DNA of 64,000 nucleotides from Flavisolibacter longurius. Its GTDB lineage: Bacteria; Bacteroidota; Bacteroidia; Chitinophagales; Chitinophagaceae. Shown here piece by piece: positions 9,700 through 26,692 of this stretch. The stretch covers positions 186,001-250,000 of the forward strand of contig JABUMY010000007.1 of NCBI GenBank assembly GCA_013327885.1, written 5' to 3'. The position numbers and the translations under genes were made by a program. The number at the start of each line of letters is the position of its first letter. Within the stretch, counting starts at the first letter, position 1. Below the pieces are notes generated by a model that was not told where the DNA came from, made no database searches, and worked only from the letters and a program-made list of their open reading frames with translations.

Positions 9700-9761
9700 T
9701 ATTGCAAAACAGTTAACAAGTACCGGCACCATACTTGAAAATGTTTCTGAAAATTCTGTTT

Positions 9762-10346: not shown

Positions 10347-10369
10347 CCTGTTGTATTTACACTTTATTG

Positions 10370-10401
10370 AAAAACCCTCTGGCCTGCAGAGGGTTTTTTA
10401 T
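10370..10401 (+). terminator. Rho-independent terminator after the PorT-like gene
   Basis: AACCCTCTG and CAGAGGGTT pair around a GCCTG loop, followed by TTTTTATTTTT. It separates the barrel gene from lon. Confidence 0.88.
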
Positions 10402-10434
10402 TTTTCGCCGCATGGGCAGGAATTGACAAGAGTG

Positions 10435-10465
10435 TTGGCTTTCGGCTAACCTCTTTGTACTTTCG
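10435..10465 (+). promoter_or_regulatory. Bacteroidota sigma-A promoter of lon
   Basis: TTGG at 10435-10438 and TACTTTCG at 10458-10465 are spaced by 19 bases, near the -33/-7 consensus (TTTG, TAnnTTTG) with one mismatch in the -7. Transcription would start about 25 bases before the GTG of lon. Confidence 0.55.
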
Positions 10466-10494
10466 CAGGCCGAACAGGATTTAAACAGACAATA

Positions 10495-12888
10495 GTGAAG
10501 AAATACCTCAAAGCAGAAGAAGACCTTGATTTTATTCCCATCATGCCATTGAATGAAGCCGATGGCGAAGGTGCGGAAATAGAAGTACCCGAAAGCCTGA
10601 GCCTTTTACCCCTGCGCAATACCGTTCTTTTTCCCGGTGTGGTTTTACCCATTACCGTAGGAAGAGACAAAAGCATAAAAGCCGTGAACGACGCCTACCG
10701 CGGCGATAAGCTGATTGGCGTTGTTGCCCAAAAAGACAGCACCATCGAAGACCCACAGGCAAAAGACCTGGAAGACATTGGAACGGTGGCCAAGATCATC
10801 AAGCAAATTCAAATGCCCGATGGCGGCACTACCATCATCATCCAGGGGAAAACGCGGTTTGTGATCGATTCGGTGATTTCGGAAGAACCTTATTTCAAGG
10901 CAAAAACATCGGCTCTGAAAGATGAGGAGATGGTGACCGATCCTGATTTTGATGCTTATGTTTCCAACATCAAAGACATTGCTACCGAAATCATCCAGCT
11001 TTCACCCAATATTCCTAGCGAAGCATCGGTGATCCTGCGCAATATTGAAAATGCTTCTTTTCTTATTCACTTTGTTTCCAGCAATCTCTCCATTGACATC
11101 CGCGAAAAGCAGGCCTTGCTGCAACTCAATAACCTGCGGCAGCGTGCCGAACTCTTGATGCAGTTCCTGCAAAAAGAACTGCAGTTTGCCGAGTTGAAAA
11201 ACAAAGTGACAAACAAGACCCGCACCGAAATTGACAAGCAGCAGCGGGAATATTTCCTGCAGCAGCAACTAAAAAGCATAAAGGAAGAACTGGGTGGCGA
11301 TCACAACGAGCGGGAAGTAAAGGAGCTGCAGAAAAAAGCCGAAACAAAAAAATGGCCCGAAGCTACAAGAGAAGCCTTTAAAAAAGGCATCGAAAAGCTG
11401 GAGCGGATGCACCCCACCACGCCGGATTATTCGGTGGTGTACAATCACCTCGACCTGATGCTGGACCTTCCCTGGGACGATACAACAGAAGATGTGTATG
11501 ACCTGAAGCGGGCAAAAGAGATCCTGGATGCTGATCATTACGGCATGGATAAAATAAAAGAGCGCATTCTGGAATACCTGGCCGTTCTAAAATTAAAAGG
11601 CGACATGAAAAGCCCGATCCTTTGTTTTTACGGTCCTCCCGGTATTGGGAAAACTTCTTTGGGTCGCAGTATTGCCAACGCCATCGGTCGCAAATATGTG
11701 CGACTGAGTTTAGGTGGTATTCACGATGAAAGCGAAGTGCGGGGCCACCGGAAAACCTACATTGGCGCCATGCCCGGTCGTATCATTCAAAACATTCGCA
11801 AGGTAAAAAGCTCCAACCCGGTGATGATCCTTGACGAGATCGATAAAGTGGGTGCTGATTTTAGGGGTGATCCAAGCAGTGCACTTTTGGAAGTGCTGGA
11901 CCCCGAACAAAACAATACGTTTTACGACAACTACCTGGAACTGGAATATGACCTGAGCAAAGTGTTGTTCATTGCCACCGCCAACAACCTGCAATCGATT
12001 CAGCCGGCGCTCCGCGACCGCCTGGAGATCATTGAACTGAACGGGTATGCCGTTGAAGAAAAAATCGAGATCGCCAAGCGGCACCTGATTCCAAAACAAC
12101 TGGAAGCACACGGGCTGAAATCTTCCAAGTTCAAGATCAGCGAAAAGGTGCTGGACAAGATCATCCAGGACTACACAAGGGAAAGCGGTGTGCGGGAACT
12201 GGACCGTCACTTGGCCGCTATTATGCGTTACCAGGCAAAAGCGCTGGCCATGACAGGCAGCCTGAAAGCCGTACTGACCATTGAGGATATTGAAAAGATC
12301 CTGGGTAAATCACGCTTTACCAATGAGCTGTACAAACAAGCAACCATTCCGGGTGTGGCCGTAGGACTGGCGTACACGCAGGTAGGCGGCGATATTCTTT
12401 TTATTGAGGCCATTTTAAGCGATGGCAAGCCTGATCTGCGCCTGACCGGCAACCTGGGCGATGTCATGAAGGAGAGCGCCGTTACAGCGCTTTCTTATCT
12501 CAGTGCCAACGGTAAGAAGTTTGGCATTGAGCCCACGCTGTTCGAAAAGAAAACAGTACACATCCATGTGCCGGAAGGTGCCGTTCCGAAAGACGGCCCA
12601 AGTGCGGGGGTAACAATGCTCACCGCCCTGGCATCTGCCTTTACCGGCAAAAAGATCAAGCCTTACCTGGGTATGACCGGTGAGATCACCCTTCGCGGAC
12701 AGGTGCTGCCTGTTGGTGGCATCAAGGAAAAAGTGCTGGCGGCCAAACGGGCCGGTTTGAAAGACATCATTCTTTGCTGGCAGAACCAGAAAGACATTGA
12801 AGAGATCAACCCTGCTTATATCAAAGGCCTGCGTTTTCACTATGTAAAAATGATGAAGGAAGTGCTGGAGATTGCCTTGCAGGATTAA
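10495..12888 (+). CDS. lon: ATP-dependent protease Lon
   Basis: Lon is a hexameric cytosolic AAA+ serine protease that degrades misfolded and regulatory proteins. The 797-residue product has the LonN substrate domain ([20 protein letters not shown] near 34), a coiled-coil middle, Walker [12 protein letters not shown] near 378, Walker B VMILDEID near 443, and the C-terminal protease domain with the catalytic Ser in [11 protein letters not shown] and Lys in [13 protein letters not shown]. The start is GTG at 10495 (first residues [17 protein letters not shown]). It is preceded by its own promoter and a terminator, so it is probably monocistronic. Confidence 0.97.
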
Positions 12889-12890
12889 GT

Positions 12891-12922
12891 TGGTTATTGG
12901 TTATTGATTATTGGTTATTGGG
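12891..12922. repeat. Quasi-tandem TTGGTTATT array
   Basis: TTGGTTATTGGTTATTGATT followed by ATTGGTTATTGGG, directly after the lon stop codon. It is one of the rhyming arrays of this window, without an inverted partner here. Confidence 0.6.
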
Positions 12923-12975
12923 TTTGCTTATAATGTGCAGGCTTGCATTTGGATGAACGATGATGGCATCAACAA

Positions 12976-13132
12976 GGGTGCACCACAAATGGTACGATCA
13001 TAAAATTGAAAGGCACTGTAGTATGCGTCCTCGCCAACGGCATGTTGGAAAGCAAAACCGATGATGGAAAGCATCTTCGCGAAGACGTCAGCAGGAGCAA
13101 AATCGCAAGTTGTCATACACCCGTCAGCAATT
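12976..13132 (+). repeat. 157-base dispersed repeat, copy 1 (second copy 49036-49192)
   Basis: The copies share, in the same order and spacing, GGGTGCACCACAAA, ACGATCA, CGTCCTCGCCAACGGCATGT, GGAAAGCA, GGAGCAAAA, TTGTCATA and CAATTGAA. Both sit just upstream of a plus-strand gene (porQ here, glmM there). On the minus strand both open with MTxCxFAP and contain QHAVGED; that frame runs to 63 codons here but stops after 36 in the other copy. It may be an RNA element, a REP-like unit or a decayed gene. Confidence 0.75.
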
Positions 13133-13163
13133 GAATGATAAAGTTTATTTTCATGGCCATTGC

Positions 13164-14198
13164 ATGAGGCGTATTTCCCAATTGATATTGGCTGCCGGAC
13201 TTTTTATTCCGAATGCCTTGTTGTCACAAACGACAGGGGGCAGGGCTGCCTACAATTTTTTGCGCCTGCCGTCATCGTCTTTCCTCGCGGCAGCCGGCGG
13301 CGTCAATACATCCTATGCGTTTGGCGATGTTAGTGTAACAGCTAATAACCCGTCCCTGCTCCAGTCATCTTTAAGCGAACAACTGCATGTCGGTTTTCAT
13401 TCTTTTATTGCCGGAACAAAAGCTTATGCGCTGACGGGTGCCTACCATTTGCAAAGCGCAGAAACCACTATCGGGGGACACATCCAGTTTATCGATCATG
13501 GCAGCTTACCAGCTACAGACGCTGCCGGTAATGTTAGCGGTAATTTCCGCCCGGTTGATTTTGTGGTGCAGGTCTCTGCTGCAAAACGATACCTTCAAAA
13601 GTGGCACTATGGTCTTACGCTGAAATACATCCATTCTTCTTACGGGCAATACCGCTCCAGCGCAATGGCAGCCGATGTTGGTGTCTTGTTCAACGATTCG
13701 GCCAGGCAGCTTTCTGCATCTGTTTTATTAAAAAATATGGGTGTTCAGGTGACGTCCTATTCCGGCGAAGCCGAAGACCTTCCGTTTGACCTGCAGGCTG
13801 GTTTGACCAAACGTTTGCGGGATGCGCCGTTTGCTTTTTCGGTAACAGCGCAAAAGCTTCACCGGTTCGATAACTTGTACAACGATCCTGTTTTTAATGG
13901 TGACAACGGCTTCAGTGATCCTTCAGCAATCAATAAGATTCTTACACATTTTATCCTGGCGACGCATGTATTCCTTGGTCAGCATATTGAAGCAACCATT
14001 GGCTACAATTTTTTGCAGCGACAGGAATTAAAAGTTGGTGCAGAAGGCAACGAGCTGACCGGTTTTTCCGCAGGATTGCGGCTAAGCTTTCGCAAGCTGC
14101 AGGTGCACTATGGTCGCACAGCCTACCAGCGGGGCGTGGCTTCCAACCAGGTTGGTATCACCGTTCACCTCGACCGCCTGGGTGGATTTGGCCGCTAA
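13164..14198 (+). CDS. porQ: Type IX secretion system protein PorQ
   Basis: The 344-residue protein has a signal peptide (RRISQLILAAGLFIPNALLSQ), then GGRAAYNFLRLPSSSFLAAAGG and DVSVTANNPSLL, which are hallmark strands of PorQ, a FadL/PorV-like outer-membrane barrel. PorQ works with PorU/PorV/PorZ in the attachment complex that cleaves and anchors T9SS cargo. Start at ATG 13164; an upstream frame from 13110 begins inside the dispersed repeat and is rejected. No T9SS C-terminal sorting domain was recognised in other proteins of the window. Confidence 0.87.
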   Translation: MRRISQLILAAGLFIPNALLSQTTGGRAAYNFLRLPSSSFLAAAGGVNTSYAFGDVSVTANNPSLLQSSLSEQLHVGFHSFIAGTKAYALTGAYHLQSAETTIGGHIQFIDHGSLPATDAAGNVSGNFRPVDFVVQVSAAKRYLQKWHYGLTLKYIHSSYGQYRSSAMAADVGVLFNDSARQLSASVLLKNMGVQVTSYSGEAEDLPFDLQAGLTKRLRDAPFAFSVTAQKLHRFDNLYNDPVFNGDNGFSDPSAINKILTHFILATHVFLGQHIEATIGYNFLQRQELKVGAEGNELTGFSAGLRLSFRKLQVHYGRTAYQRGVASNQVGITVHLDRLGGFGR

Positions 14199-14240
14199 TG
14201 CTTGTGGTATAATAATTGGACATTTCCCCAAAATACCTGT

Positions 14241-14735
14241 ATGAAGCCATTTTATGCAATACTCCTGTCACTGGTTTTGGGCGCCTGTTCTTCACCCCGG
14301 CAAACAACGCTTTCCAGCAGCAGTGCCAACCAGGCCATGTCGGGAACCGAAGATGCGGTGCTTGTTGCCAATACCACGGAGGACGCCGGTATGAGATCTT
14401 CACCGGCTTCGCTGCAAGGAACCTGGTATATGCATACGATGAAGCGGCAGGAAGAAATGCCAGAAGAAACCTTGAATATTTATATCAACCTGAATGAAGA
14501 CCGCAGCTTTGTTGCCAACACCACCTGCGGGCAGATCAAAGGCCAGTATACCACCAAGGGAGCGAACATGACGTTTGGAAAAATTTCTTACAACCGCAAC
14601 GACTGCGGCAATGCAGCGCAACTGGATGAAATGGTGCGCTTGCTGACAGATGTGGTGAACCAGTACTCCTTTAACGGCAACATGCTTTTCCTGAAGGACA
14701 AAGGAGGCAACAACGTGTTCCGGGTAACACGCTAG
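14241..14735 (+). CDS. META-domain (HslJ-like) lipoprotein
   Basis: The 164-residue protein has a lipobox LVLGAC at about 11-16, so it is a predicted lipoprotein. A Ser/Thr-rich linker is followed by LQGTWYMHTM and later FVANTTCGQIKGQYTTKGANMTFGKISYNRNDC, the META/HslJ fold with its two conserved cysteines, and ends NNVFRVTR. The function of META lipoproteins is unclear (envelope stress, heat-shock-related). It converges with the PIG-L gene, overlapping it by 4 bases at the stops. Confidence 0.78.
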   Translation: MKPFYAILLSLVLGACSSPRQTTLSSSSANQAMSGTEDAVLVANTTEDAGMRSSPASLQGTWYMHTMKRQEEMPEETLNIYINLNEDRSFVANTTCGQIKGQYTTKGANMTFGKISYNRNDCGNAAQLDEMVRLLTDVVNQYSFNGNMLFLKDKGGNNVFRVTR

Positions 14736-15358
14736 CTGCTCAGGCGGTACACCTCAAATGCTTCGGCGAAAGGAGCATTGCATTGCACCCCACGCACGGT
14801 GGCCAATGCCGTGTGAAAAGAAGCCTGCATATACGACCGGCCTTCCTGCGATTTGTACGCTTTTAATGCGGTTTGCTTTGCCAAAAGATGGTTTTCTTCC
14901 AACTTCTCGAAATACACCGGTGAAAAATTAAAATTGTTCCAGGGCAGTTCATACCCCAACACATTGCAGTTTTTAAAAGCCCGCAAACCTTCGGCATATA
15001 TAACCTGGTGATCCTGGTGAACATCGTGCTGTGCTGGCAGGAAGACCGTTTGCGGCTGCAACTTTTTGTTCAGGCATATCAGCTCTTCGAGGATCTCTTG
15101 CCGGTGAAACAATAATCGTCTTACTTCAAAATCAAAAAAGATCACTTCCTGAATGCCCAGCGCAGTGGTAGCCGCTTTGCATTCAACCGCCAACGTATCG
15201 GCGGGGAGTTCGTTTGGCAGCGATTGCGAGCAGGTAGAAAAAGCAACGTAGATCACCTGTTTGCCGGCGGCAATATACTTTGCCAACGAAGCGCCACAAC
15301 CCAATTCGCCGTCATCGGTATGCGGTGCCAGCACCATGATCTTTTCTGTCTGCAACAT
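14732..15358 (-). CDS. PIG-L family N-acetylglucosaminyl deacetylase-like protein
   Basis: The 208-residue protein has the zinc motif APHTDDGELG (His13, Asp15, Asp16; AHPDDE in most relatives) and a second motif QHDVHQDHQV near 110-118. Relatives de-N-acetylate GlcNAc-linked compounds or cell-surface sugars. There is no signal peptide, so it is probably cytosolic. It lies 24 bases downstream of the sulfatase-like gene on the same strand and is likely co-transcribed with it. The gene pair is divergent from the phosphonate operon, which may mean a shared glycan pathway; this is inference. Confidence 0.85.
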   Translation of the reverse strand: MLQTEKIMVLAPHTDDGELGCGASLAKYIAAGKQVIYVAFSTCSQSLPNELPADTLAVECKAATTALGIQEVIFFDFEVRRLLFHRQEILEELICLNKKLQPQTVFLPAQHDVHQDHQVIYAEGLRAFKNCNVLGYELPWNNFNFSPVYFEKLEENHLLAKQTALKAYKSQEGRSYMQASFHTALATVRGVQCNAPFAEAFEVYRLSS

Positions 15359-15382
15359 GGGGCTAAGATAATGGCAAACGCC

Positions 15383-16846
15383 TTATTCATCCAGGAAAGA
15401 AGTTGAATCTTTCAGCAGGGGCAATTGCTGGCCAAAAGCAGCATTGAGCAATACGCGGAACTGGTTTACGCCGGTGATGCCCTCGTAAAACGGCTGGTAG
15501 TTGCCGTTAGGAAGGTAAACAGCGTTCAGGTTCATGTAATAATAGGGAACCACATTTGGTGTCGGCACTTCAAACTGCCGGTAACCGTGATCCCCAAGTA
15601 ATAAAATGATCGGAGGTTTTGCAGAGGCTTCCAATATCTTATCGATCATTTGGAGGTAAACACCATTTCCGTAACGCAGGTATTCAACATAGGAAGGTTT
15701 GTGAAAGTTGTTCTTGGGTGTACTCAGCAATGGATTGGGTTTACCATCGTGCCGGTAATAATAGGGGTGATGCGGTACATGCACATGCGTATACACAAAT
15801 TTTGGCTGGTCTTTTTCCTGCAGGTCCGCTTCAAATTGATCCACCAGGTTTTGGTTGGAATTGCGGGTGTAATACAAATAACGGTCTTGTACCACTTTCA
15901 CTGGAAAGGTGATGGCGAGGTGCCAGCCAATGTCTCGCCAAACCCGTTGCAAAAACGTATGGGAAGCAATAAAATCAATCCCGATCTTAAAATGTGATTG
16001 TGGCTCTTTGGTAGAAATGTTGTTGAATTGAAAGATGGAATTATTATAGAACCGGTAGTTGTGTTGCCGGAAAAAATCGATCACGGGATTTTGGTTGATA
16101 AGCGTGGCAGCTTTCACCCGGTCGGGATAGCTTTGGTTTCTGCCTTCCAATCCATTGATGTACTCCATGGACAACATCGCCGCAACCGAGAACGGTGTAT
16201 AGTTGTAATTGCTGCGGCTTTTACTGATACGAAAGCCTCGCTTTCGCAATTCGGCTAGAAAAGCGTTGTTGTTGAAACCAAAGAGTTCCGAAAGTGACGT
16301 AGAATCTGCATACTCATCGGCAATGATCAGGTGTATATCCGGTGTGTTGCAATCCGCACAGGGTTTGAATTGAACTGTTTGATCGGGTACCTCTCTTTTG
16401 CGAAAAAGTGCGGGAACATCCACCAGCAACAAAACTAGCAGCACCAGGTTGAGATAAGTAAAAAAGCGGGCAAAGCCACTTTTTGTTTTACGCAGCCAGG
16501 TAAGAAAAACAATCAGCACCAGAAAAGAGAGCGGGAGCAAAACCGAATATTTAGCCAATAAAAAGTTTTGTCCAATTCTTTTCAATAGATCGTGAAAGGC
16601 ACCAAAAAAAAGATGAAAGAACAGCAGCCCAAAGGCAAACAGTGCGGCCTTTTTATGGTAACGGTAAAACAGCCAACCAATACCATAAAGCACGGCTGAT
16701 GCGAGGAAATACTCCGCCGTGAGTTTGATAAATTCAGCCAGCCTGACGGTGTCCTGGTTTTGCGTATAACCGTGAAAAACAAAGAAAAGGGGCAGCAGGT
16801 ACAAAAAATGTGGAAAGCCCTGGATGCGTTGCAAAAAATTATTCAT
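15383..16846 (-). CDS. Membrane sulfatase / alkaline-phosphatase-superfamily enzyme
   Basis: The 487-residue protein has about five N-terminal membrane helices (up to about residue 148) and then a sulfatase-type domain starting at DIHLIIADEYAD near 170. SRSNYNYTPFSVAAMLSM near 211-228 supplies the candidate nucleophile Thr/Ser, and IILLLGDHGYRQ near 420 carries the second metal site. The layout resembles phosphoglycerol/phosphoethanolamine transferases that act at the outer face of the inner membrane on lipid or glycan substrates. No formylglycine motif (CxPxR) is seen, which argues against a true sulfatase. It is divergent from aepX with an 84-base gap. Confidence 0.8.
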   Translation of the reverse strand: MNNFLQRIQGFPHFLYLLPLFFVFHGYTQNQDTVRLAEFIKLTAEYFLASAVLYGIGWLFYRYHKKAALFAFGLLFFHLFFGAFHDLLKRIGQNFLLAKYSVLLPLSFLVLIVFLTWLRKTKSGFARFFTYLNLVLLVLLLVDVPALFRKREVPDQTVQFKPCADCNTPDIHLIIADEYADSTSLSELFGFNNNAFLAELRKRGFRISKSRSNYNYTPFSVAAMLSMEYINGLEGRNQSYPDRVKAATLINQNPVIDFFRQHNYRFYNNSIFQFNNISTKEPQSHFKIGIDFIASHTFLQRVWRDIGWHLAITFPVKVVQDRYLYYTRNSNQNLVDQFEADLQEKDQPKFVYTHVHVPHHPYYYRHDGKPNPLLSTPKNNFHKPSYVEYLRYGNGVYLQMIDKILEASAKPPIILLLGDHGYRQFEVPTPNVVPYYYMNLNAVYLPNGNYQPFYEGITGVNQFRVLLNAAFGQQLPLLKDSTSFLDE

Positions 16847-16930
16847 TACCGCTGCACAGTGATTTATAAATAAGGAGGCAAATTAAGAATAAACTATTTC
16901 TTTGCTCATTCAAAAGCGATGAATTGACGG

Positions 16931-18232
16931 ATGGAGAAAATTGTTTACATCGGCATGAGTGCTGACCTGGTGCACCCGGGACATTTGAACGTGATCAAAA
17001 AAGGAGCCTCGCTGGGTCGTGTAGTGATTGGTTTGTTAACCGACGAAGCCATTGCTTCCTACAAACGGGTACCATATCTCAGCTTTGCGCAACGAAAGGA
17101 AATCATTGAAAACATAAAGGATGTGTCTGAAGTGGTGGCCCAAACTACCTTGGATTACGAAGCCAACCTGCGGCAACTAAAACCTGCATACGTGGTGCAT
17201 GGCGACGACTGGCAAACCGGTGTACAAAAAGCCACCCGCCAACGGGTAATCGAAATATTGAAGGAGTGGGGGGGTGAGTTGGTGGAAGTACCCTACACTA
17301 AGGACATTTCTTCATCAGCAATTCAACATTCCCTCAAAGAGATCGGCATTACACCCGGCAACCGGCTACGGCGGCTGCGGCGCATTCTTTCGGTAAAAAA
17401 TCTGGCGGTGGCCATGGAGGCACACAATGGCCTGAGTGGATTAATCGTGGAAGAAACCGTGAGCAAAAACGAGAACGGACAGGCCACCGAATTTGATGCG
17501 ATCTGGCTGAGCAGCCTGACCGATTCATTTTCAAAAGGCAAACCCGACACGGAAGCCATTGATTTTACCTCGCGGTTGCAAACGGTGAACGAGATCATTG
17601 AAGTGACAACCAAGCCGATCATCTTTGATGGCGACACGGGCGGACGCATCGACCAGTTCCCTTTTATGGTGCGGTCGCTGGAAAGGTTAGGGGTTTCGGC
17701 GGTGATCATCGAAGACAAGGTGGGACAGAAAAAAAATTCATTGATCGAAGATGCGGGCCATCATGAGCAGGATTTTATCGAAGACTTTTGCCAGAAGATA
17801 AAGGCTGGCCTGGCGAGCAGGGTCACCGAAGAATTTATGATCATTGCCCGCATCGAAAGCCTCATACTTGGTAAAGGCATGGAAGATGCGCTGACACGAG
17901 CAAAAGCTTATGTAGAAGCCGGCGCCAGTGGCATCATGATCCATAGCAAGCAAAAATCACCCGACGAAGTGTTGCAGTTTGCAGGCGCCTTTCGAGCTAT
18001 AGCACCTACAATTCCGTTGGTGGCCGTTCCGTCCACCTACAACACTATATCCTGGAGCAGCCTGGCCGACGCTGGCTTTAACATTGTCATCCAGGCCAAC
18101 CACCTCCTGCGCAGTGCTTACCCAGCTATGAAAAAAACAGCACTTTCGATCCTCGAAAACAAGAACGCAGCAAGTGCTGAGGCCGACCTTATCTCCATAC
18201 AGGAATTTTTTAAACTCATTGAAGACAAATGA
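16931..18232 (+). CDS. aepX: Cytidylyltransferase-phosphoenolpyruvate mutase fusion
   Basis: PEP mutase converts PEP to phosphonopyruvate, the entry into nearly all natural C-P compounds. Residues 1-135 are a TagD/GCT-like nucleotidyltransferase: HPGH at 15-18 and the CTP-binding DISSSAI at 125-131. Residues 150-433 are the PEP mutase/isocitrate lyase-like barrel, with FDGDTGG at 232-238 and [10 protein letters not shown] at 261-270, the loop that separates true mutases (EDKxxxKxNS) from lyases. The two activities are steps 1 and 4 of the inferred pathway. The ATG at 16931 follows a short leader. It overlaps aepY by 4 bases. Confidence 0.93.
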
Positions 18233-19344
18233 TCCAGCCAAGTCAATTTTTAGCGCAGCTAACGGAAGCGGGTATCCATATTTATGCCGGTGTGCCTGAT
18301 TCGTTGCTGAAAGGCCTGCTCACGGCCATTGCCATAAATTTTCCTGACCAACATTTTATAACTGCCAATGAAGGTGCAGCCGTTGGGCTGGCCACGGGGC
18401 ATTACCTCGCCACAGGCAATGTGCCGGCTGTATACCTGCAGAACTCAGGACTGGGCAATATCATCAACCCTCTGACCTCCCTTACTGATAAGGATATGTA
18501 CGGCATTCCCATGCTTTTAATCATAGGCTGGCGGGGCGAACCCGGTGCCAAGGACGAGCCGCAGCACCTGGTTATGGGCCGGATCACCACAACGCTGCTG
18601 CACCAGTTGAATGTGCCATTTATTGTGTTGAAAAAATCGGATGAACATGAGTGGATCGAGTCCGTTCAGGAAGCCGTTGTGACAGCAAAAGAAAAAATGC
18701 GGCCTGTTGCTTTACTGGTTGAATCCGGCCTGTTTCCCGACGATGAACTGGAAGCGGAGAGGAGATATGAGCTGTCTGCCGAAGATGCGATACAACTGAT
18801 CTACGGCCAACTCGCAGAAGACGATATTGTCATTTGCACCACGGGTAAGATCGGGAGGGAATTTTTTGCGTTGAATGAAAGCAGGGGCAAGATCAAAAAA
18901 TATTTCCTGAACGTGGGCTCCATGGGCCATGCGGTTAGCATTGCTACCGGCATTGCCATGCAGGTAAAGGAAAGAGTGGTGCTGCTGGATGGGGATGGGT
19001 CGCTGCTGATGCACATGGGTGCAATGGCGCTGCCGGCCCATTTAAAGCTGCAGAACCTGGCCTGCGTGGTGCTGAACAACGGTGCCCATGGCTCTGTTGG
19101 CGCTCAACCAACGCTTGGCTTTGAAGTCGATTTCTGCACCATCGCCCACGGTTGCGGGTTTCAAAACCCGGTTCGTATCACCAGCCGCGATGGCTGGGAA
19201 AAGCTTGGTGAGAATTTCAGGGAGGTTGACTTTCTGGAGTTTCGCATCAACACAGCAAGCAGCGCTTACCTGCCACGACCAACGGCAACACCCTGGGAAG
19301 CAAAAGAAGCATTCATGAAGGCGCTGGGTTCTACAAAACACTAA
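18229..19344 (+). CDS. aepY: Phosphonopyruvate decarboxylase
   Basis: A thiamine-diphosphate enzyme that decarboxylates phosphonopyruvate to phosphonoacetaldehyde, pulling the unfavourable mutase reaction forward. The 371-residue length is right for single-chain Ppd. [18 protein letters not shown] near 46-63 holds the catalytic Glu. The ThDP/Mg motif runs from [12 protein letters not shown] near 244 to NNGAHGSVG near 284. The start overlaps the aepX stop (ATGA), showing coupling. Within the operon the role is unambiguous; sulfopyruvate decarboxylase is the main alternative and is unlikely next to a PEP mutase. Confidence 0.93.
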
Positions 19345-19347
19345 GGT

Positions 19348-20367
19348 ATGCAACAGGTGATACAAGGCGAAGGTTGTTTACAACAGCTTCCCCAACTTTT
19401 ACAGCAAATGGGTGCACGCAGCTTGTTGCTGGTGACCGGTCAGCATTTGCTGCAGGAAAAATCCTTTCAAAAACTGCAGCAGGAAATTCAGGTTCCCTTC
19501 AAGCTGGTGCATCCTTCTGCCGGGGTGTTGCAGGTTGAAGGTATTCCTACGTTTGAATCACTGGACACGGTGGTAGCCATTGGCGGTGGAAAGGTGATGG
19601 ATTTTGCCAAAGGCATTCTTTACAAGAACGGAACAACCGCTAAACTGATTGCTGCACCAACAACAGCAGGTTCAGGAAGTGAAGCCACACCGATTGCTGT
19701 TTTTTACAAGGGAAAAGAAAAAGTATCCCTGGATGCACCCCACCTTTTGCCGCATACCGCTATGTTGGATCCTGCCTTACTGGCAAATCTTTCGCCACTG
19801 CAAAAAGCCATTTCCGGCGCCGATGCCCTGGCGCAGTGCATTGAGTCGGTTTGGAACAAACACAGTTCACCAGATTCCGAAACCTTCGCCCTGAAAGGCA
19901 TCGATCTTGTCATGCAAAACCTGCCTGCATTTGTTAGCGGCGATGCAGCCGCAGCAAAAAACATGCTTTGGGCTGCTTATCTTTCCGGTAGCGCCATTGC
20001 CCTTACCCGCACAACAGGGCCGCATGCGCTGGCCTATTATCTCACCGCTCACCACGACGTTCCGCATGGGCAGGCCGTGGCGCTGACCCTGCCGCTTTTT
20101 TTCCTGTACAATAACACCCAAGGGGCACAGGAACAGTTGCAAAAACTCTATGTTGTGCTGCAGGCAAAAGGAGCCGAAGACGCTTTTTTACATTGCCGTA
20201 ATTTTTATAAAAAGATCGGGCTGGCGACAACCTTACCCGAATTAGGCCTGGCAGGCATTGATATCGATGCCTGGCTGCAATCGGTAAACCAACAGCGTTT
20301 TGCCAACAACCCTGCGTCTTTTGATGCCGGGAAGCTAAACGATTTATTCCGGCGATATTTGCGCTGA
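19348..20367 (+). CDS. Iron-type alcohol dehydrogenase, probable phosphonoacetaldehyde reductase
   Basis: A group III (iron-dependent) alcohol dehydrogenase of 339 residues. The NAD(P) motif GGGKVMDFAKG is at 77-87, the nucleotide-phosphate loop is APTTAGSGSEATP near 102-114, and metal ligands are expected in DALAQCIESVW and in GPHALAYYLTAHHDVPHG. It starts 3 bases after aepY. Position between phosphonopyruvate decarboxylase and a transferase makes reduction of phosphonoacetaldehyde to 2-hydroxyethylphosphonate the best inference; no aminotransferase for aminoethylphosphonate is present. Confidence 0.85.
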   Translation: MQQVIQGEGCLQQLPQLLQQMGARSLLLVTGQHLLQEKSFQKLQQEIQVPFKLVHPSAGVLQVEGIPTFESLDTVVAIGGGKVMDFAKGILYKNGTTAKLIAAPTTAGSGSEATPIAVFYKGKEKVSLDAPHLLPHTAMLDPALLANLSPLQKAISGADALAQCIESVWNKHSSPDSETFALKGIDLVMQNLPAFVSGDAAAAKNMLWAAYLSGSAIALTRTTGPHALAYYLTAHHDVPHGQAVALTLPLFFLYNNTQGAQEQLQKLYVVLQAKGAEDAFLHCRNFYKKIGLATTLPELGLAGIDIDAWLQSVNQQRFANNPASFDAGKLNDLFRRYLR

Positions 20368-20368
20368 T

Positions 20369-21469
20369 ATGTTTTCGTTTTTTACTGAAGTTAAAACAGC
20401 CAACAGCCTTGCTTCGCAAAAATTCAACGTGATCTTTTTTGCAGAAAGCCGCTACTACTTTCAATATTACCAGCACTTGTATGAAGCCCTGGTGGCCGTA
20501 CCAGGGATTTCTATTGCCTACCTAACGGCAGACAAAACCGATCCGGTTTTAGCGGACAAAAGAGTCAAGGCTTTCTACTTAAAAACAACGCTGGCGGGTA
20601 TCTTTCCGCGTCTGCAGGCTGATGTGATGATCCTGACGATGCCGGACCTGCAGAACTTTATCTTTAAGCGGTCGCCCGGCGTAAAAAACTACGTGTATAT
20701 TTTTCATGCCCTCGTCAGTACACACCAGCAATACAGGGCCCATGCATTTGATCATTACGACACCATTTTTTGCACCGGTCCGCAGCAAGTGGAAGAACTA
20801 AAGGAAGCGGAGCAACGGGAAGGGCTACCCGCAAAAACATATGTCCACTATGGCTACCCTTTGTTGGAAGAACTGAAGCAAAGAGCCGCAGCAAGTGAAG
20901 TTGTAGAAAACAAAGTCCTGATTGCCCCCAGCTGGTACAGCGAAGGCATTTTAAATACCTGCATCCTGGAACTGGTGAACTATATGGGCGAAGCAAAGGA
21001 GGAGATATGGATTCGTCCGCACCCCGAATTCACCAAGCGCAATCCAAAAATTTACAAGCAGCTTCTTGCCAAAACAAAAGGTGCCGGGAATATCCGGTTC
21101 GATACATCGCCATCTGTGTACACGCACCTGGCCGATGCCGGCTTACTCGTTACCGACAGATCGGGCATTGCGCTGGAATATGCGTTTGCCCGGCAGCGTC
21201 CTGTTTTGTTCATCGACACACCGCTGAAGATTCAAAATCCGGATGTCGGAAAATTCTCAATGGAGCCCTTAGAAAATAAGTACCGTAGCCAATTAGGCAT
21301 TGCTTTATCGCCATCGGAATTGAGCCGGGTAGGAGAAGCCCTCGACAAATTAAAAAGTTCTGCAGCGGAATACAGAACTTCAATTAAAACGGTTGAGCAG
21401 GAGGTCGTATTCTCACCGGCCTATTGGCAAAACGGCGTTGAATTTATCAGGAGTCAACTAACCCTCTGA
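20369..21469 (+). CDS. CDP-glycerol glycerophosphotransferase-family protein, probable phosphonate transferase
   Basis: The 366-residue protein is a GT-B-like enzyme of the TagB/TagF family: IWIRPHPEF near 211 and TDRSGIALEYAFARQRPVLFID near 252-273 are the conserved donor-site segments. Classical members transfer glycerol-phosphate from CDP-glycerol. Here the operon makes a likely CMP-hydroxyethylphosphonate, a close mimic of that donor, so I infer transfer of the phosphonate to a glycan or lipid. It starts one base after the dehydrogenase stop. Its 3' end overlaps a convergent small gene by 12 bases. Confidence 0.82.
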   Translation: MFSFFTEVKTANSLASQKFNVIFFAESRYYFQYYQHLYEALVAVPGISIAYLTADKTDPVLADKRVKAFYLKTTLAGIFPRLQADVMILTMPDLQNFIFKRSPGVKNYVYIFHALVSTHQQYRAHAFDHYDTIFCTGPQQVEELKEAEQREGLPAKTYVHYGYPLLEELKQRAAASEVVENKVLIAPSWYSEGILNTCILELVNYMGEAKEEIWIRPHPEFTKRNPKIYKQLLAKTKGAGNIRFDTSPSVYTHLADAGLLVTDRSGIALEYAFARQRPVLFIDTPLKIQNPDVGKFSMEPLENKYRSQLGIALSPSELSRVGEALDKLKSSAAEYRTSIKTVEQEVVFSPAYWQNGVEFIRSQLTL

Positions 21470-21613
21470 GTCTTTTTTCTTTCGTGTAAAAAACATCTTG
21501 ATGCGCCACCACGATGTCTTCAGGAAAAAAGCAGCGCCCATGGCAGCGGCTACAAGAGCCTGCACCAGGTAACTGCCACTGCCCGGGTCGATATAAAGCA
21601 AGAATTGCGTCAT
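21458..21613 (-). CDS. 51-residue membrane protein (small gene)
   Basis: The frame gives MTQFLLYIDPGSGSYLVQAL, then a hydrophobic run (VAAAMGAAFFL), WWRIKMFF and a basic/charged tail (TRKKKDSEG). The DPGSGS motif before a membrane helix recurs in small Bacteroidota membrane proteins near envelope-glycan genes (recalled, not searched). Its ATG overlaps the stop of the M42 peptidase in the ATGA manner, so it is very likely translated with it. The 3' end overlaps the phosphonate-transferase gene on the other strand. Confidence 0.72.
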   Translation of the reverse strand: MTQFLLYIDPGSGSYLVQALVAAAMGAAFFLKTSWWRIKMFFTRKKKDSEG

Positions 21614-22716
21614 GAGAAGTAGCTTAAGTTTGTTTTCGGCGTTATTGTCAACAGCGTTTCATACATCAGTTGAATGGTCTGCTCAATGTCGCGACGATGC
21701 AGCATTTCCACCGTGGTGTGCATATACCGCAGCGGGATGGAGATCAGCACCGAAGGGCAACCATCGTTGGCATAAGCAAATGAATCGGTATCGGTACCGG
21801 TGCTGCGGGAAACGGTCCGCAACTGCACGGGAATGGCCGCTTTTTCCGCTACCTCTTCCACCAATTGCAATAACTTGTTGTGTACCGCCGGGCCATACGA
21901 CAGCGAAGGTCCGCGACCACAGGCTGTATCGCCTTCAATCATTTTGTTGATCATCGGTGTAGAGGTATCGTGGGTAACATCGGTAATGATGGCCACGTTG
22001 GGCTTGATGCGACGGGCAATCATCTCAGCACCACGCAAGCCAATTTCTTCCTGCACGGCATTCACCACGTACAAGCCAAACGGAAGCTTTTTGCGAGCTT
22101 CCTTTAGCAGGCGGGCCACTTCAGCGATCATAAAGCCACCGATCCGGTTGTCGAAGGCACGACCAATAAAATAATCATAGGCCAGTTCGTCAAAACCGTC
22201 CTGGTAGGTCACCACGCTGCCCACACGAATACCCAAATCCTCCACTTCTTTTTTGTTGCGGGCACCGGTATCCAGGAAAAGGTTTTCCACCTTTGCTACC
22301 GGTTCTTTTTCCTGGTTACTGATGCGGGTATGAATGGCCGGCCAGCCAAAAACGGCTTTCACCGGTCCGTTCTTGCCATGGATGAAAACACGTTGTCCCG
22401 GGGCGATCTGGTGATCCACACCACCGTTGCGCTTCAGGTAAATAAGACCTTCGTTGTTGATATAATTGACAAACCAGCTGATCTCGTCCACATGCGCTTC
22501 TATCACCACCTTAAAAGGATGCTCGGGATTTACCACGCCAACTGCCGTACCATACGGATCGGTGAAGATCGTGTCCACATGCGGACGGATATAATCGATC
22601 CAGAGCTTTTGCCCGGTTGATTCAAAACCAACGGGAGAGGGAGTGTTGATGTAGTTACGGAAAAAATCCAGGGAGTTTTCGGTCAGGATAGAACTGCTCT
22701 TTTTTGCTTTGGCCAT
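21610..22716 (-). CDS. M42 family metallopeptidase (glutamyl/deblocking aminopeptidase type)
   Basis: The 368-residue protein has the order of motifs of M42 dinuclear aminopeptidases: VVIEAHVDEISW near 64 (His/Asp metal ligands), GRAFDNRIGG near 178 (bridging Asp), VQEEIGLRGAE near 207 (general-base and metal Glu), ITDVTHD near 230 (Asp) and MHTTVEM near 341 (His). Such enzymes are cytosolic tetrahedral dodecamers removing N-terminal residues. I chose ATG at 22716 (MAKAKKSS) because the upstream ATG would overlap the UbiA-like gene further. It is followed by, and coupled to, the 51-residue gene. Confidence 0.92.
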   Translation of the reverse strand: MAKAKKSSSILTENSLDFFRNYINTPSPVGFESTGQKLWIDYIRPHVDTIFTDPYGTAVGVVNPEHPFKVVIEAHVDEISWFVNYINNEGLIYLKRNGGVDHQIAPGQRVFIHGKNGPVKAVFGWPAIHTRISNQEKEPVAKVENLFLDTGARNKKEVEDLGIRVGSVVTYQDGFDELAYDYFIGRAFDNRIGGFMIAEVARLLKEARKKLPFGLYVVNAVQEEIGLRGAEMIARRIKPNVAIITDVTHDTSTPMINKMIEGDTACGRGPSLSYGPAVHNKLLQLVEEVAEKAAIPVQLRTVSRSTGTDTDSFAYANDGCPSVLISIPLRYMHTTVEMLHRRDIEQTIQLMYETLLTITPKTNLSYFS

Positions 22717-22726
22717 GCACACTTGA

Positions 22727-23569
22727 TTATCGGGCAAATCTAAGCAAAATGAGGCAGGAAGCGGATAGCGCCATCAGGCCATCGAGCAAAAAATAATATA
22801 AATAATCCGAATGATTTTTTTTAGAAGCCTTGTAAAGTAGGCCCATGATAAAGGCCGGTAACAGCAGCAAACAGGCCTCTGCCACCGGTAGCCAGCGGGT
22901 AAGCACCACCGTTGTAGCCAGTACCACCAACTGCGAGAACCAGAACAGCCTGTCCACACCTTTTTCATCCATCAACGTAATCAGGCTGCGGATGCCGGCC
23001 TTGCGGTCGCTTTCCACATCACGACGGTCGAACACAATACAGATGGCATAAATAAAGAAAAAGCGGTTGACAAGGTACCAGCCATGCCCTTCACCAAGTC
23101 CATCCTGAACAACAAGCAGGGGCAGCGATGCCGTAATGTGTGCCCAGGCAAAGGCCAGGTAAATGGTTTTGGCCAATGCAATCTTGCGCAGCCAGCGAAA
23201 GGGAGGTAAGGGGATCAGCGGTGCCGAATACAGGAAGGTTAAAAAGGCCGTCACACCCAGCCAAAACCAGTGTTCGATCAGGAGAGAACAACAGACAGCG
23301 GCACCAACTAGACCAACAAGGAAAAGGACGAGGTGAAGAGGCCTGTTAGCCAGGTTCCATTGCTGTTTTTTTGAGTGGCCGGGAATATCTGGCGGGGTCA
23401 GGTACCAGTGAAAATTATAGCTGCAAACCGAGCCGAAAAATACAAATGCATACAGCGAAAGCGGGAACTGGATGCCAAAAAGCAAAAATGCCTGGTACAT
23501 CATCAGCACGGCGCAACAGGCAATAAACAGGCTTGTAAAAACAAAAAAGTCAAAGAATTTTTTCAGCAA
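22727..23569 (-). CDS. UbiA-like prenyltransferase family membrane protein
   Basis: The 280-residue protein has about eight or nine membrane helices. The segment VFDRRDVESDRKAGIRSL near 180-197 matches the second Asp-rich motif of UbiA enzymes. The first motif (NDxxDxxxD) is missing: the corresponding place reads NFHWYLTPPD. It may therefore be a divergent or non-catalytic member; divergent UbiA-like proteins of this type occur in many Bacteroidota. It starts 6 bases after the lipoprotein gene and ends 10 bases before the peptidase start, so the three form one operon. Confidence 0.78.
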   Translation of the reverse strand: MLKKFFDFFVFTSLFIACCAVLMMYQAFLLFGIQFPLSLYAFVFFGSVCSYNFHWYLTPPDIPGHSKKQQWNLANRPLHLVLFLVGLVGAAVCCSLLIEHWFWLGVTAFLTFLYSAPLIPLPPFRWLRKIALAKTIYLAFAWAHITASLPLLVVQDGLGEGHGWYLVNRFFFIYAICIVFDRRDVESDRKAGIRSLITLMDEKGVDRLFWFSQLVVLATTVVLTRWLPVAEACLLLLPAFIMGLLYKASKKNHSDYLYYFLLDGLMALSASCLILLRFAR

Positions 23570-23575
23570 TGGTCC

Positions 23576-24031
23576 TTACTGGAATTTTCGTAGCAGAATT
23601 TTTTCGGACTCAACATACTCGCTGCGGTTGCCGGCGTTATCAAGCACCACCAGGCCAATGCTGAACTCGCGGTCGAAGTTGCGTTCAAGGTCCTGGAAGA
23701 TGGCGTATTCAGGATAAAGGCGGCCATACGAAACCGTTACCCGCAATTCGATCTTTTGCTTGTTGGGAACACCCAGTCCTTTCAGGCTTAACCGTGTGCT
23801 GTCAACAGAAAGTTCGGTACCGGCATTGAAGCGTTTACGCACAACGATCACCGAATCCTGGATGTCGCCTTCCTGGTCGGTAACCGTAGCCAGCATTTCA
23901 ATGATGGCGCCATTCACCGCTTCTTCAGGAGAAATGGATTCGATCTTCACCTGTGGGACCGTTTTGAATTTATCTTTGCTGCAGGCTGCCAACACACCGG
24001 CTACCAGGAATAAGGCCAAAAGTTTTTTCAT
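23576..24031 (-). CDS. Small lipoprotein of unknown function
   Basis: The 151-residue protein has a clear lipobox (LALFLVAGVLAAC, Cys17), then KDKFKTVPQVKIESISPEEAVNG and a series of beta strands with an acidic turn (TVTDQEGDIQDSV), suggesting an immunoglobulin/cadherin-like sandwich. It is predicted to be anchored in the envelope. A TAAATTTG box sits 14 bases upstream on this strand. It heads the operon with the UbiA-like protein, the M42 peptidase and the 51-residue protein. No specific family is recognised. Confidence 0.75.
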   Translation of the reverse strand: MKKLLALFLVAGVLAACSKDKFKTVPQVKIESISPEEAVNGAIIEMLATVTDQEGDIQDSVIVVRKRFNAGTELSVDSTRLSLKGLGVPNKQKIELRVTVSYGRLYPEYAIFQDLERNFDREFSIGLVVLDNAGNRSEYVESEKILLRKFQ

Positions 24032-24045
24032 AAAAATTTCCTTCT

Positions 24046-24053
24046 CAAATTTA
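24046..24053 (-). promoter_or_regulatory. -7 box TAAATTTG upstream of the lipoprotein operon
   Basis: An exact TAnnTTTG match 14 bases before the lipoprotein ATG, in the 26-base gap to the divergent LuxE-like gene. No good -33 is seen. Confidence 0.45.
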
Positions 24054-24057
24054 CGTG

Positions 24058-25053
24058 ATGTCGATTGAAATACCTAAACAGAACGGTCTCCTGGAAAGGG
24101 TATTTGCTATCTCTAACGAAAAAGACTTCGAACAAATTGCGCAGGAAGTTTTCCGGGTCCAGTATCGTGAGAACACCGTGTACGGTGACTATTGCAGGGC
24201 CATTGGTAAAACGCCTGACCGGGTTTCATCCCTTACCGATATTCCGTTTTTGCCGATCCAATTCTTTAAATCGCACCCGGTTAAGACCGGTGATTTCACC
24301 CCGGTAACGGTCTTTCAAAGCAGCGGAACCACAGGCAATGTCAACAGCAGGCATTTTGTAAAAGACCTGTCAGCTTATGAAGAAAGCTTCCTGCGTTGCT
24401 TCCGGCTTTTTTATGGAGCTCCGCAGAAATATTGCATCCTTGGATTGCTGCCCTCTTACCTCGAGCAGGGTTCTTCGTCGCTCGTTTACATGGTGGATCG
24501 GCTGGTAAAAGAAAGTGGCCATCCGCAAAGCGGTTTTTATTTGTATGATCACAAGCGTTTAAAAGAAACCTTACTTCAGCTTGAAACTGCAGGACAAAAA
24601 ACGCTGTTATTTGGCGTTACCTATGCCTTGCTCGATTTTGCCGAAGGTTATGGTTTTCCGTTAGGCCATACAACCATCCTCGAAACCGGTGGCATGAAAG
24701 GGCGAAAGAAAGAACTGTTAAAAACCGAGTTGTACGAAGAATTAAAGGCGGCTTTTTCGCTGGATGAGATTCATTCGGAGTATGGCATGACAGAGCTTTT
24801 TTCACAAGCTTGGGCCATCAATGGCCGGTACCAATGCCCGCCCTGGACGCAGGTTTTACTGCGGGATGAAACCGATCCTTTTTCGCTGGGACACAGGTCA
24901 GGGGCCATCAATGTGATCGACCTGGCCAATCTCTGGTCTTGCAGCTTTATTGCAACGGAAGACCTGGGCCGTTTGCAACCCGATGGCAGCTTTGAAATTC
25001 TTGGCCGCATGGACAATACCGATATCCGTGGCTGTAGCCAACTTGCGTTGTGA
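24058..25053 (+). CDS. LuxE/PaaK-like acyl-protein synthetase domain protein
   Basis: The 331-residue protein carries the ANL-superfamily phosphate-loop FQSSGTTGNV at 86-95, ETGGMKGRKKEL near 207 and SEYGMTELFSQAW near 241-253, matching LuxE (acyl-protein synthetase) domains. LuxE normally activates a fatty acid as acyl-AMP and passes it to a cysteine. No LuxC or LuxD is next to it, so the substrate is unknown; standalone LuxE-like proteins are often found in surface-polysaccharide loci. ATG at 24058 is preferred to GTG at 24055. It is divergent from the lipoprotein operon. Confidence 0.8.
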   Translation: MSIEIPKQNGLLERVFAISNEKDFEQIAQEVFRVQYRENTVYGDYCRAIGKTPDRVSSLTDIPFLPIQFFKSHPVKTGDFTPVTVFQSSGTTGNVNSRHFVKDLSAYEESFLRCFRLFYGAPQKYCILGLLPSYLEQGSSSLVYMVDRLVKESGHPQSGFYLYDHKRLKETLLQLETAGQKTLLFGVTYALLDFAEGYGFPLGHTTILETGGMKGRKKELLKTELYEELKAAFSLDEIHSEYGMTELFSQAWAINGRYQCPPWTQVLLRDETDPFSLGHRSGAINVIDLANLWSCSFIATEDLGRLQPDGSFEILGRMDNTDIRGCSQLAL

Positions 25054-25264
25054 AGATTTTTTTCTTAAGAATTAAAAATGAAGATGCGTGGGCTTTGACC
25101 AAAGCAGCAAATCATCAGTTGCCGTGCTTCTTCGCGAATTGGAAATGGAAAAATGCCAAGAAAAGAAATTCCTCTTCTCTTTTTCTGAAACATCCTTTTT
25201 CAGCCAACACTCCAAATAAATAAGGCGCGGGATAAGGATGGGTAGATATACAGTTGTGTTGTAA

Positions 25265-25432
25265 GCAATCTCTCTCCAGTTGCCCGCCGCTTTAGCGCGG
25301 GGTAAACCAGATGTTATGTACTTCCTCTGTATCGGCTTTAGCCGAATGGGTTCGGATAAAGCCGATACAAATAGATATTGAACACACATTCATATCCCCG
25401 CGCTAAAGCGGAGGGGCAATTGGGAGAAATCA
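25265..25432. repeat. Nested palindromic element before the lysC terminus
   Basis: Outer arms GCTTTAGCGCGGGG (25289-25302) and CCCCGCGCTAAAGC (25396-25409) are exact inverted copies, extended by imperfect flanks (CCAGTTGCCC against GGGCAATTGG). An inner palindrome at 25330-25367 pairs TATCGGCTTTAGCCGAA with TTCGGATAAAGCCGATA (one mismatch). The element fills the right part of the 25054-25432 gap; the rest is AT-rich with no gene I can support. Confidence 0.8.
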
Positions 25433-26692
25433 TCATCCTTTGGCTTCTAAAAGCAACTGCACCGTTTCGGGTGTTTGTTGGCGTAGTACGATGGTGAAAC
25501 CTGCCGTTAATTTTTGTAAGATCTCCTCGTTGTAATGCCGGATGGTGAGCAGCGTAAGGCCTTTTTTTACGGTGACGTCAAACTTATCACTTGCCTGCAG
25601 CGCAAAGGCTTCCACCTTTTCCGCACGGTCATCAAGCACACACAAAAGACTGATGGCGGCGTTTTGTGTGAGATTTGGTTTCAGGTGTAAGGACGAAAGC
25701 ATCTCGAACGCTTCAGCGCTCAGACCTTCACCCACAAACGAAAAATCACGGGAGGTTAACTGCACCAGCACCTGCGCCGCTTTGTAAACAATAATCGGCG
25801 GAAGAACGGCCACCCGTTGGTTGTGAATACAAGTGCCTTCGGCATCCGGATCGAGGAAGGATTTTACATAAAGCGGGATGCCCTTGTTTTGCAGCGGCTT
25901 GATGGTTTTGGGGTGGATCACCTGCGCACCGTAAAAAGCCATCTCGATCACCTCGCGGTAGTTCAGCTCTTTGATCCACTGTGCTTCGGCATACTGCTTT
26001 GGATCGGCGTTCATCACTCCTTGCACATCTTTCCAGATCACTTGCCGCTCGGCGTTGAGCAGGTTGGCAAAAATAGCGGCCGAAAAATCGCTGCCTTCGC
26101 GGCCCAGCGTGGTGCTTTCGTTTTCGTCGGTGGCACCAATAAATCCCTGTGTTAATACAATATCGCTTTGCATAAAAAGCGGTGCGACCTGTGTGGCCAC
26201 TTTTTCGGCGGTTATCGTCCAGTCGATGCGGGCATCGCGAAAGGCATTGTCCGTCCGCACCACATCGCGTACATCGATCCACTCGTTGTTGATACCGGCG
26301 GTTTGGAGATACTGGCTGACGATGGCCGAGGAAAGCAGTTCGCCCACGCAAACCACCTGGTCGTAGTAATAATCAAAATTCCGAACAGGCTTATCGTGCA
26401 GCAGCCATTCAATCTCGGTATAAAAATCTGAAAGCTGGGAGAGGGGGCTGCCCAGCAATTCTGTGGCAAGCGCATTGTGGCTTTGTTTTACACCGGCAAA
26501 AAGTTGCAGAGCCGCTTCTTTTTCACCGGCAAAAAACGTCTCCACCACGCCTTCCAGCGCATTGGTGGTTTTGCCCATGGCCGAAACAATGATCAGCAAT
26601 TTTTCTCCTTTGTATCGCTTCAGAATTTCCGCTACGTTGCGGATGCGTTCTGCCGTGCTAACCGAGGCACCACCAAACTTAAAAACCTTCAT
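25433..26692 (-). CDS. lysC: Aspartate kinase
   Basis: Aspartokinase phosphorylates aspartate, the first step toward lysine, threonine and methionine. The 419-residue protein has the substrate/ATP motif VFKFGGASV at 3-11, a catalytic-domain TLGREGSDFSAA near 196-207 and a Lys-rich MNADPKQY region, then C-terminal ACT domains (about 300-419) for allosteric control. It is monofunctional, with no homoserine-dehydrogenase part. It is not adjacent to dapB or other pathway genes. No lysine riboswitch is visible in the 87 bases upstream. Confidence 0.93.
   Translation of the reverse strand: MKVFKFGGASVSTAERIRNVAEILKRYKGEKLLIIVSAMGKTTNALEGVVETFFAGEKEAALQLFAGVKQSHNALATELLGSPLSQLSDFYTEIEWLLHDKPVRNFDYYYDQVVCVGELLSSAIVSQYLQTAGINNEWIDVRDVVRTDNAFRDARIDWTITAEKVATQVAPLFMQSDIVLTQGFIGATDENESTTLGREGSDFSAAIFANLLNAERQVIWKDVQGVMNADPKQYAEAQWIKELNYREVIEMAFYGAQVIHPKTIKPLQNKGIPLYVKSFLDPDAEGTCIHNQRVAVLPPIIVYKAAQVLVQLTSRDFSFVGEGLSAEAFEMLSSLHLKPNLTQNAAISLLCVLDDRAEKVEAFALQASDKFDVTVKKGLTLLTIRHYNEEILQKLTAGFTIVLRQQTPETVQLLLEAKG

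Follow-up and report, generated by a model that had tools for sequence, protein, structure and literature searches.

A four-gene cassette joining a probable Fom1-type CMP-hydroxyethylphosphonate module to a divergent TagF/TarL-family candidate transferase in a Bacteroidota genome

A 64,000-nucleotide stretch of contig JABUMY010000007.1 from Flavisolibacter longurius (hereafter the window) carries four open reading frames (ORFs) on one strand, at 16931-21469 (+), which we regard as probably a phosphonyl-tailoring cassette: genes 1 to 3 would make 2-hydroxyethylphosphonate (HEP) linked to cytidine monophosphate (CMP-HEP), and gene 4 would put the HEP on an envelope glycan or glycolipid. Read directly from the sequences were the order of the genes and their protein families, the TagF histidines of gene 4, the Fom1-type domain of gene 1 and the recurrence of the slot that gene 4 occupies. 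A preliminary description of the stretch had proposed a four-gene operon in this order, with genes overlapping or within 3 bases, and the ORFs confirmed both the order and the spacing (a 4-base overlap of genes 1 and 2, then gaps of 3 bases between genes 2 and 3 and of 1 base between genes 3 and 4). The features of the cassette are as follows.

16931..18232, plus strand: gene 1, 433 amino acids (aa), fusion of a cytidylyltransferase (residues 1 to about 140) and a phosphoenolpyruvate (PEP) mutase (residues 149-432)
16931..17350, plus strand: Fom1-type HEP cytidylyltransferase domain of gene 1 (identity to PDB 5x3d, 84/136)
17711..17740, plus strand: 10-residue PEP mutase signature in gene 1 (residues 261-270)
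18229..19344, plus strand: gene 2, 371 aa, phosphonopyruvate decarboxylase (Fom2/AepY-like), exceeding the TIGR03297 cut-off
19348..20367, plus strand: gene 3, 339 aa, iron alcohol dehydrogenase, putative phosphonoacetaldehyde reductase (FomC/PhpC-like)
20369..21469, plus strand: gene 4, 366 aa, divergent TagF/TarL-family (PF04464-like) protein, candidate HEP transferase
20705..20707, plus strand: codon of gene 4 His113, aligning with the TagF His444 column
21020..21022, plus strand: codon of gene 4 His218 (in RPHP), second TagF His column, Ala in chain 3l7m

The mutase part of gene 1 scored 378.4 bits against TIGR02320 (cut-off 319.55) and also matched PF13714, and the N-terminal part scored 47.7 bits against PF01467 (cut-off 21). 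As described earlier, the mutase signature, starting at residue 261, and the HPGH and ISSSAI motifs of a CTP-transferase lie in one chain, and the order of the two domains is that of Fom1. The closest solved structure to the first 140 residues was PDB 5x3d (197.5 bits, 62% identity), which we take to be the Fom1 domain, the title of the PDB record reading phosphoenolpyruvate phosphomutase; the runner-up, an ethanolamine-phosphate cytidylyltransferase, reached 48.6 bits. The earlier label 'TagD-like' was right about the cytidylyltransferase and understated its affinity, the Fom1 domain being far closer than glycerol-3-phosphate cytidylyltransferase (197.5 versus 36.3 bits). The proposed thiamine diphosphate decarboxylase and iron alcohol dehydrogenase were both recovered: gene 2 exceeded the cut-off of the phosphonopyruvate decarboxylase family TIGR03297 (385.8 versus 312.5 bits), and gene 3 exceeded those of PF00465 and PF25137, its best NCBIfam match, TIGR03405, lying below the cut-off (143.3 versus 423.7 bits). 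No protein of the window genome exceeded the cut-off of the transaminase family TIGR03301 (best match 38.7 versus 360.8 bits), which, together with the presence of the putative reductase, supports the predicted product HEP. The Fom1 domain makes CMP-HEP, according to Rice et al. 2019 (PMC6697681), and Streptomyces Fom1, Fom2 and FomC lead from PEP to CMP-HEP, according to PMC8158854; because of this literature and the identity to the Fom1 domain, genes 1 to 3 look like the known CMP-HEP module. The novelty implied for the mutase-cytidylyltransferase fusion did not hold, since Fom1 of fosfomycin synthesis has this architecture and 23.6% of PEP mutases carry a fused PF01467 domain, as given in the same paper (PMC6697681).

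In the proposed pathway, the C-terminal domain of gene 1 would convert PEP to phosphonopyruvate, gene 2 would decarboxylate this to phosphonoacetaldehyde, gene 3 would reduce the aldehyde to HEP, and the N-terminal domain of gene 1 would join HEP and cytidine triphosphate to give CMP-HEP, like Fom1. Gene 4, a putative GT-B protein, would then take the HEP phosphonate from CMP-HEP and attach it, on the cytoplasmic side, to a hydroxyl group of a glycan or glycolipid of the envelope. We infer from sequence each reaction in this organism, as well as CMP-HEP as the donor for gene 4 and the transfer to an envelope hydroxyl.

To examine the gene order, we used the best 80 of 300 relatives of the fusion from named genomes, archaeal bins among them; the nearest named relative in this set was that of the Chitinophagaceae species Flavisolibacter longurius (91%). 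Locus L085 had no readable fusion ORF, and the counts cover 79 of the 80 loci, plus the window, in a position table of ORFs of 120 aa or more up to gene 12. The first slot after the fusion held the decarboxylase in 76 of 79 loci. The reductase occupied the second slot in 68 of 73, that of L048 being probably hidden by the ORF selection. In the third slot (n = 69) we found 34 TagF-like proteins, 8 LicD proteins, 4 CDP-alcohol phosphatidyltransferases and 23 others, whereas TagF-like proteins made up 6 of the 834 remaining neighbours. Because the slot labels came from profiles seeded with members of these same loci, a Pfam-only cross-check (E <= 0.001) was made on the 46 labelled third-slot proteins, and it assigned 29 to PF04464, 7 to LicD and 4 to the CDP-alcohol phosphatidyltransferases, agreeing with the labels in 29/34, 7/8 and 4/4 cases; the unconfirmed labels were five TagF-like, including the window's own, and one LicD. 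The TagF-like third slots span nine phylum-level groups by submitters' titles. The loci are related to one another: 9 of the 34, the window included, are Chitinophagaceae by title, and L053 and L054 cluster with these. On a quick tree (80 rows, 46 of them labelled, 31 open forks) the transferase label changed at least six times. The arrangement is not a chance one, since the same order recurs across phyla.

Among the other third-slot genes that were scanned were a DegT-type aminotransferase, a polysaccharide flippase, a sulfotransferase, hexapeptide proteins, an APS kinase, a radical SAM protein, a methyltransferase and a UDP-GlcNAc 2-epimerase. A radical SAM gene encoding 304 aa comes directly after the three-gene module in an archaeal bin of the Methanomassiliicoccaceae (L082:6325-7239). 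The commonest of the 86 proteins flanking the TagF-like loci outside Chitinophagaceae were sugar epimerases (7) and family 2 glycosyltransferases (7); polysaccharide flippase families accounted for three and an export family for two, and many belonged to other families.

Gene 4 itself matched no Pfam family at E <= 0.001, and at E <= 10 it scored 17.1 bits against PF04464, under the cut-off of 22.1. In an alignment of six sequences including that of the window, all six matched PF04464 at E <= 10, the best at 5.5e-12. The TagF histidine columns were placed using chains 3l7j and 3l7m, which are solved variants with those histidines changed, and among the 34 third-slot TagF-like proteins the column of His218 was conserved in all and that of His113 in 32, the window protein having both. 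Its identity to TagF in the structure alignment was 13%, it has no membrane stretches, and a search of the PDB with a six-row gene 4 profile returned one chance match and nothing else. We regard gene 4 as a divergent TagF/TarL-family protein by weak homology. Enzymes of the LicD, PF01066 and PF04464 families are known to work with CMP-linked donors. Because three such families share one slot, we argue that gene 4 may spend CMP-HEP on the cell surface; the suggestion that a CMP-donor transferase is the likely user of CMP-HEP thus gained support from the third-slot families and the TagF columns. The use of teichoic-acid-like chemistry for a C-P bond in a Gram-negative was called notable in the preliminary description; a TagF-type enzyme as such has a Gram-negative precedent in the TagF-like capsule polymerase Cps3D of Actinobacillus pleuropneumoniae, which is in the PDB. 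The new element would be gene 4, genes 1 to 3 being less novel than first claimed.

The fusion was also compared between pathways that end in a reductase and in a transaminase. It was found at E <= 1e-60 in 7 of the 395 genomes of a phylum sample, and the six loci besides the window's own served as a contrast set: in two the fusion was followed by decarboxylase and reductase, whereas in the other four a protein of 362-365 aa came after the decarboxylase. Two of these four proteins were scanned, and both exceeded the TIGR03301 cut-off (371.7 and 366.9 versus 360.8 bits). When 70 reductase-paired fusions (68 from the 80-locus set including the window, and the two contrast loci) were set against the four transaminase-paired ones, 13 cytidylyltransferase positions, including residues 10, 11, 16, 45 and 92, separated the groups. 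The reductase-type residue is present at all 13 in the window and at 12 of the 13 in Fom1, which, with the identity to the Fom1 domain, supports the earlier proposal that the N-terminal domain makes CMP-HEP. Four genomes of one other Bacteroidota family (L176-L179) have an apparent aminoethylphosphonate (AEP) version of the cassette, in which the fusion is accompanied by a transaminase-sized gene, an AEP transaminase in both copies scanned, by a gene for a protein of some 800 aa and by a divergent gene resembling CDP-alcohol phosphatidyltransferases.

In a sample of 195 genomes of the family, the full fusion and gene 4 occurred together in all five fusion genomes, a sixth genome having a gene 4 fragment cut at a contig end, and no gene 4 match was found in the remaining 189; this sample overlaps the named set, L050, L051 and L054 corresponding to G048, G091 and G167. 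All four transaminase-paired fusions are from one family, and lineage is a confounder of the 13-position signature. Two results speak against a fixed link between gene 4 and the fusion. In the phylum sample gene 4 (E <= 1e-10) joins the fusion in only one of the seven genomes, the window's own. Genome G406 of that sample has a gene 4 relative without a fusion match, and none of the labels for the other three cassette genes was seen in its 14 kb stretch.

Two genes lie directly upstream of the cassette on the opposite strand.

15383..16846, minus strand: membrane-anchored sulfatase-superfamily neighbour (PF00884), divergent; from an older locus, an optional partner
14732..15358, minus strand: PIG-L de-N-acetylase family gene, belonging to the older locus

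The first of these (hereafter the membrane neighbour) belongs to the sulfatase superfamily, also called that of alkaline phosphatase. A simple hydropathy scan of it showed three N-terminal hydrophobic stretches, and Asp177, Thr217, Asp419 and His420, which presumably correspond to EptA/LtaS residues, were invariant in the 13 distinct rows of a 14-row alignment, one row being a duplicate. Against solved chains it matched YhbX/YjdB-type proteins (E 0.023 and 0.081) and sulfatases (0.012 and 0.038), the best match being an unrelated ribosomal protein (0.0091), and a PDB search with a seven-row profile gave no match. All of the loci L045-L054 (10 of 10), the cut locus L055 and the window have a superfamily member no more than two genes upstream of the fusion, and, outside that synteny, one directly follows gene 4 in planctomycete L060 and desulfobacterium L121. 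However, the membrane gene occurs in 62 of the 195 family genomes, 57 of them without a fusion, as against five with the full fusion. Of seven cassette-less stretches read from the best-scoring genomes, four (L156-L159) keep the membrane gene at the same locus in a conserved Chitinophagaceae stretch from Lon to LuxE, where one gene of about 460 aa replaces the cassette between the membrane gene and the M42 peptidase. Of three copies of this gene that were scanned, two gave no match and one a weak methyltransferase match below the cut-off. In the same-genus genomes L153 and L154 the membrane gene is elsewhere, and L155 ends before the peptidase. A role as a dedicated part of the cassette was weakened by this distribution, and we treat the gene as an optional partner from an older locus.

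The membrane neighbour bears on one alternative, in which gene 4 loads HEP on a lipid such as diacylglycerol or a sphingolipid, from which the neighbour may pass it to a periplasmic acceptor. EptA- or LtaS-type enzymes move lipid-borne head groups to acceptors, and the four invariant residues and the recurrence of the superfamily beside the cassette would fit such a route, as would the lipid-making CDP-alcohol phosphatidyltransferases in the third slot of two loci from Acidobacteriota and one each from Aminicenantota and Thermodesulfobacteriota. We consider it rather unlikely, given the wide occurrence of the membrane gene without the fusion, its retention in four cassette-less loci, and the sugar and polysaccharide genes that flank TagF-like loci outside Chitinophagaceae.

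The weak homology that places gene 4 in its family, and its relative in G406, would also suit a protein that uses CDP-glycerol or CDP-ribitol and merely travels with phosphonate genes. This seems very unlikely, as nothing encoded in the window genome, not even gene 4, matches PF04464 at E <= 0.001, and a further homologue of gene 4 is absent from it; moreover, gene 4 accompanies the fusion in the family sample, and LicD and CDP-alcohol families occupy the same slot. The correspondence of genes 1-3 to Fom1, Fom2 and FomC could instead point to a secreted fosfomycin-like small phosphonate that gene 4 would help to tailor. Such a product is most improbable, because the radical SAM, FomD-kind hydrolase and epoxidase families are absent from the 12 flanking proteins scanned and loci elsewhere hold sugar and polysaccharide genes. 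Returning to transfer to an envelope glycan or glycolipid, repeated addition is conceivable, since a transferred HEP keeps a free terminal hydroxyl; that gene 4 polymerises HEP into poly(ethylene-phosphonate), an analogue of teichoic acid with a C-P backbone in a Gram-negative envelope, is quite improbable.

The flanking Lon, META, M42, UbiA and LuxE genes were labelled by Pfam, and another flanking gene is presumably PorQ, the Pfam scan of its protein being matchless. Signal scans gave 3 promoter-like sequences (5.5 expected, with models that do not cover Bacteroidota promoters) and 10 terminator-like sequences (8.3 expected), and a PHROGs comparison gave nothing useful. The G+C content of the operon genes (0.47-0.52; window, 0.484) did not indicate recent import.

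Some other loci of the set are noted here. Near the fusion of a Lysobacter, a 1488-aa protein (L056:2604-7070) combines TPR repeats and a group 1 glycosyltransferase with a strongly matching PF04464 domain (261 bits). In four Bacteroidales-type loci (L069:14874-17882, L099:14776-17814, L124:5427-8474 and L089:14814-16247, the last cut) the genes directly after the TagF-like gene encode related proteins, about 1000 aa long in the complete copies; in the scanned L069 copy a YidC-like domain (PF02096) is fused to one of the sulfatase superfamily. In one Chitinophagaceae genome (L044:6850-8028 and 9289-10497) a nucleotidyltransferase-like domain is fused to a part that, by eye, resembles a short-chain dehydrogenase, near flippase-like and TagF-like proteins, possibly a CDP-alditol polymer cluster in a Gram-negative.

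Among known systems, the fosfomycin module of Streptomyces (Fom1-Fom2-FomC) resembles the cassette in fusion order, decarboxylase, putative reductase, predicted CMP-HEP and the 62% cytidylyltransferase identity, but the window belongs to Bacteroidota, a TagF-family gene follows, and a Fom3-, FomD- or Fom4-like gene was not seen by Pfam in a search confined to the 12 flanking proteins at 8398-26692, three of which were matchless. TagF, TarL and Cps3D, the PF04464 polymerases of teichoic acid and capsule, share with gene 4 both TagF histidine columns and the TDxSG region, and gene 4 may have their GT-B fold, whereas it has 366 aa, 13% identity to TagF and CMP-HEP as predicted donor. In the Pnt pathways, exemplified by PntC from Treponema denticola and Atopobium rimae (PMC6697681), a phosphonate is likewise nucleotidyl-activated for a cell-surface transferase; PntC, however, is a PF12804 protein that activates AEP, whereas the window has PF01467, HEP as predicted substrate and a TagF-like candidate transferase. 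Like Pnt pathways, the window combines a PEP mutase with a nucleotidyltransferase and with a candidate transferase for the cell surface; it departs from the AEP branch in having a putative reductase, not a transaminase, as third gene. The paper names LicD-like phosphotransferases or glycosyltransferases as Pnt transferases, calls the phosphonyl-tailoring steps 'enigmatic' and presumes that carbohydrate or lipid nucleophiles take the activated phosphonate (Rice et al. 2019, PMC6697681).

The preliminary description was largely right about the locus, and its interpretation is partly supported. In a literature search by titles and abstract openings, in which subscription papers were thinly covered, nothing among the matches listed joined phosphonate or HEP to a CDP-glycerol transferase, teichoic acid or LicD. 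HEP-bearing polysaccharides were reportedly described by Yu et al. in 2014 in Glycomyces and Stackebrandtia. In marine high-molecular-weight organic matter, HEP and methylphosphonate, esterified to polysaccharide, reportedly make up as much as 20% of the phosphorus (PMC9381506). We suggest that the cassette is a new variant of phosphonyl tailoring, with its novelty in gene 4 and genes 1-3 of known type. The slot after the complete CMP-HEP module, filled across lineages by three families of which the TagF-like is the commonest, offers concrete candidates for the missing transferase, so that the question is open to test with purified enzymes. If the HEP polymer were real, HEP esters in the environment would have one source in this cassette, which recurs in many phyla.

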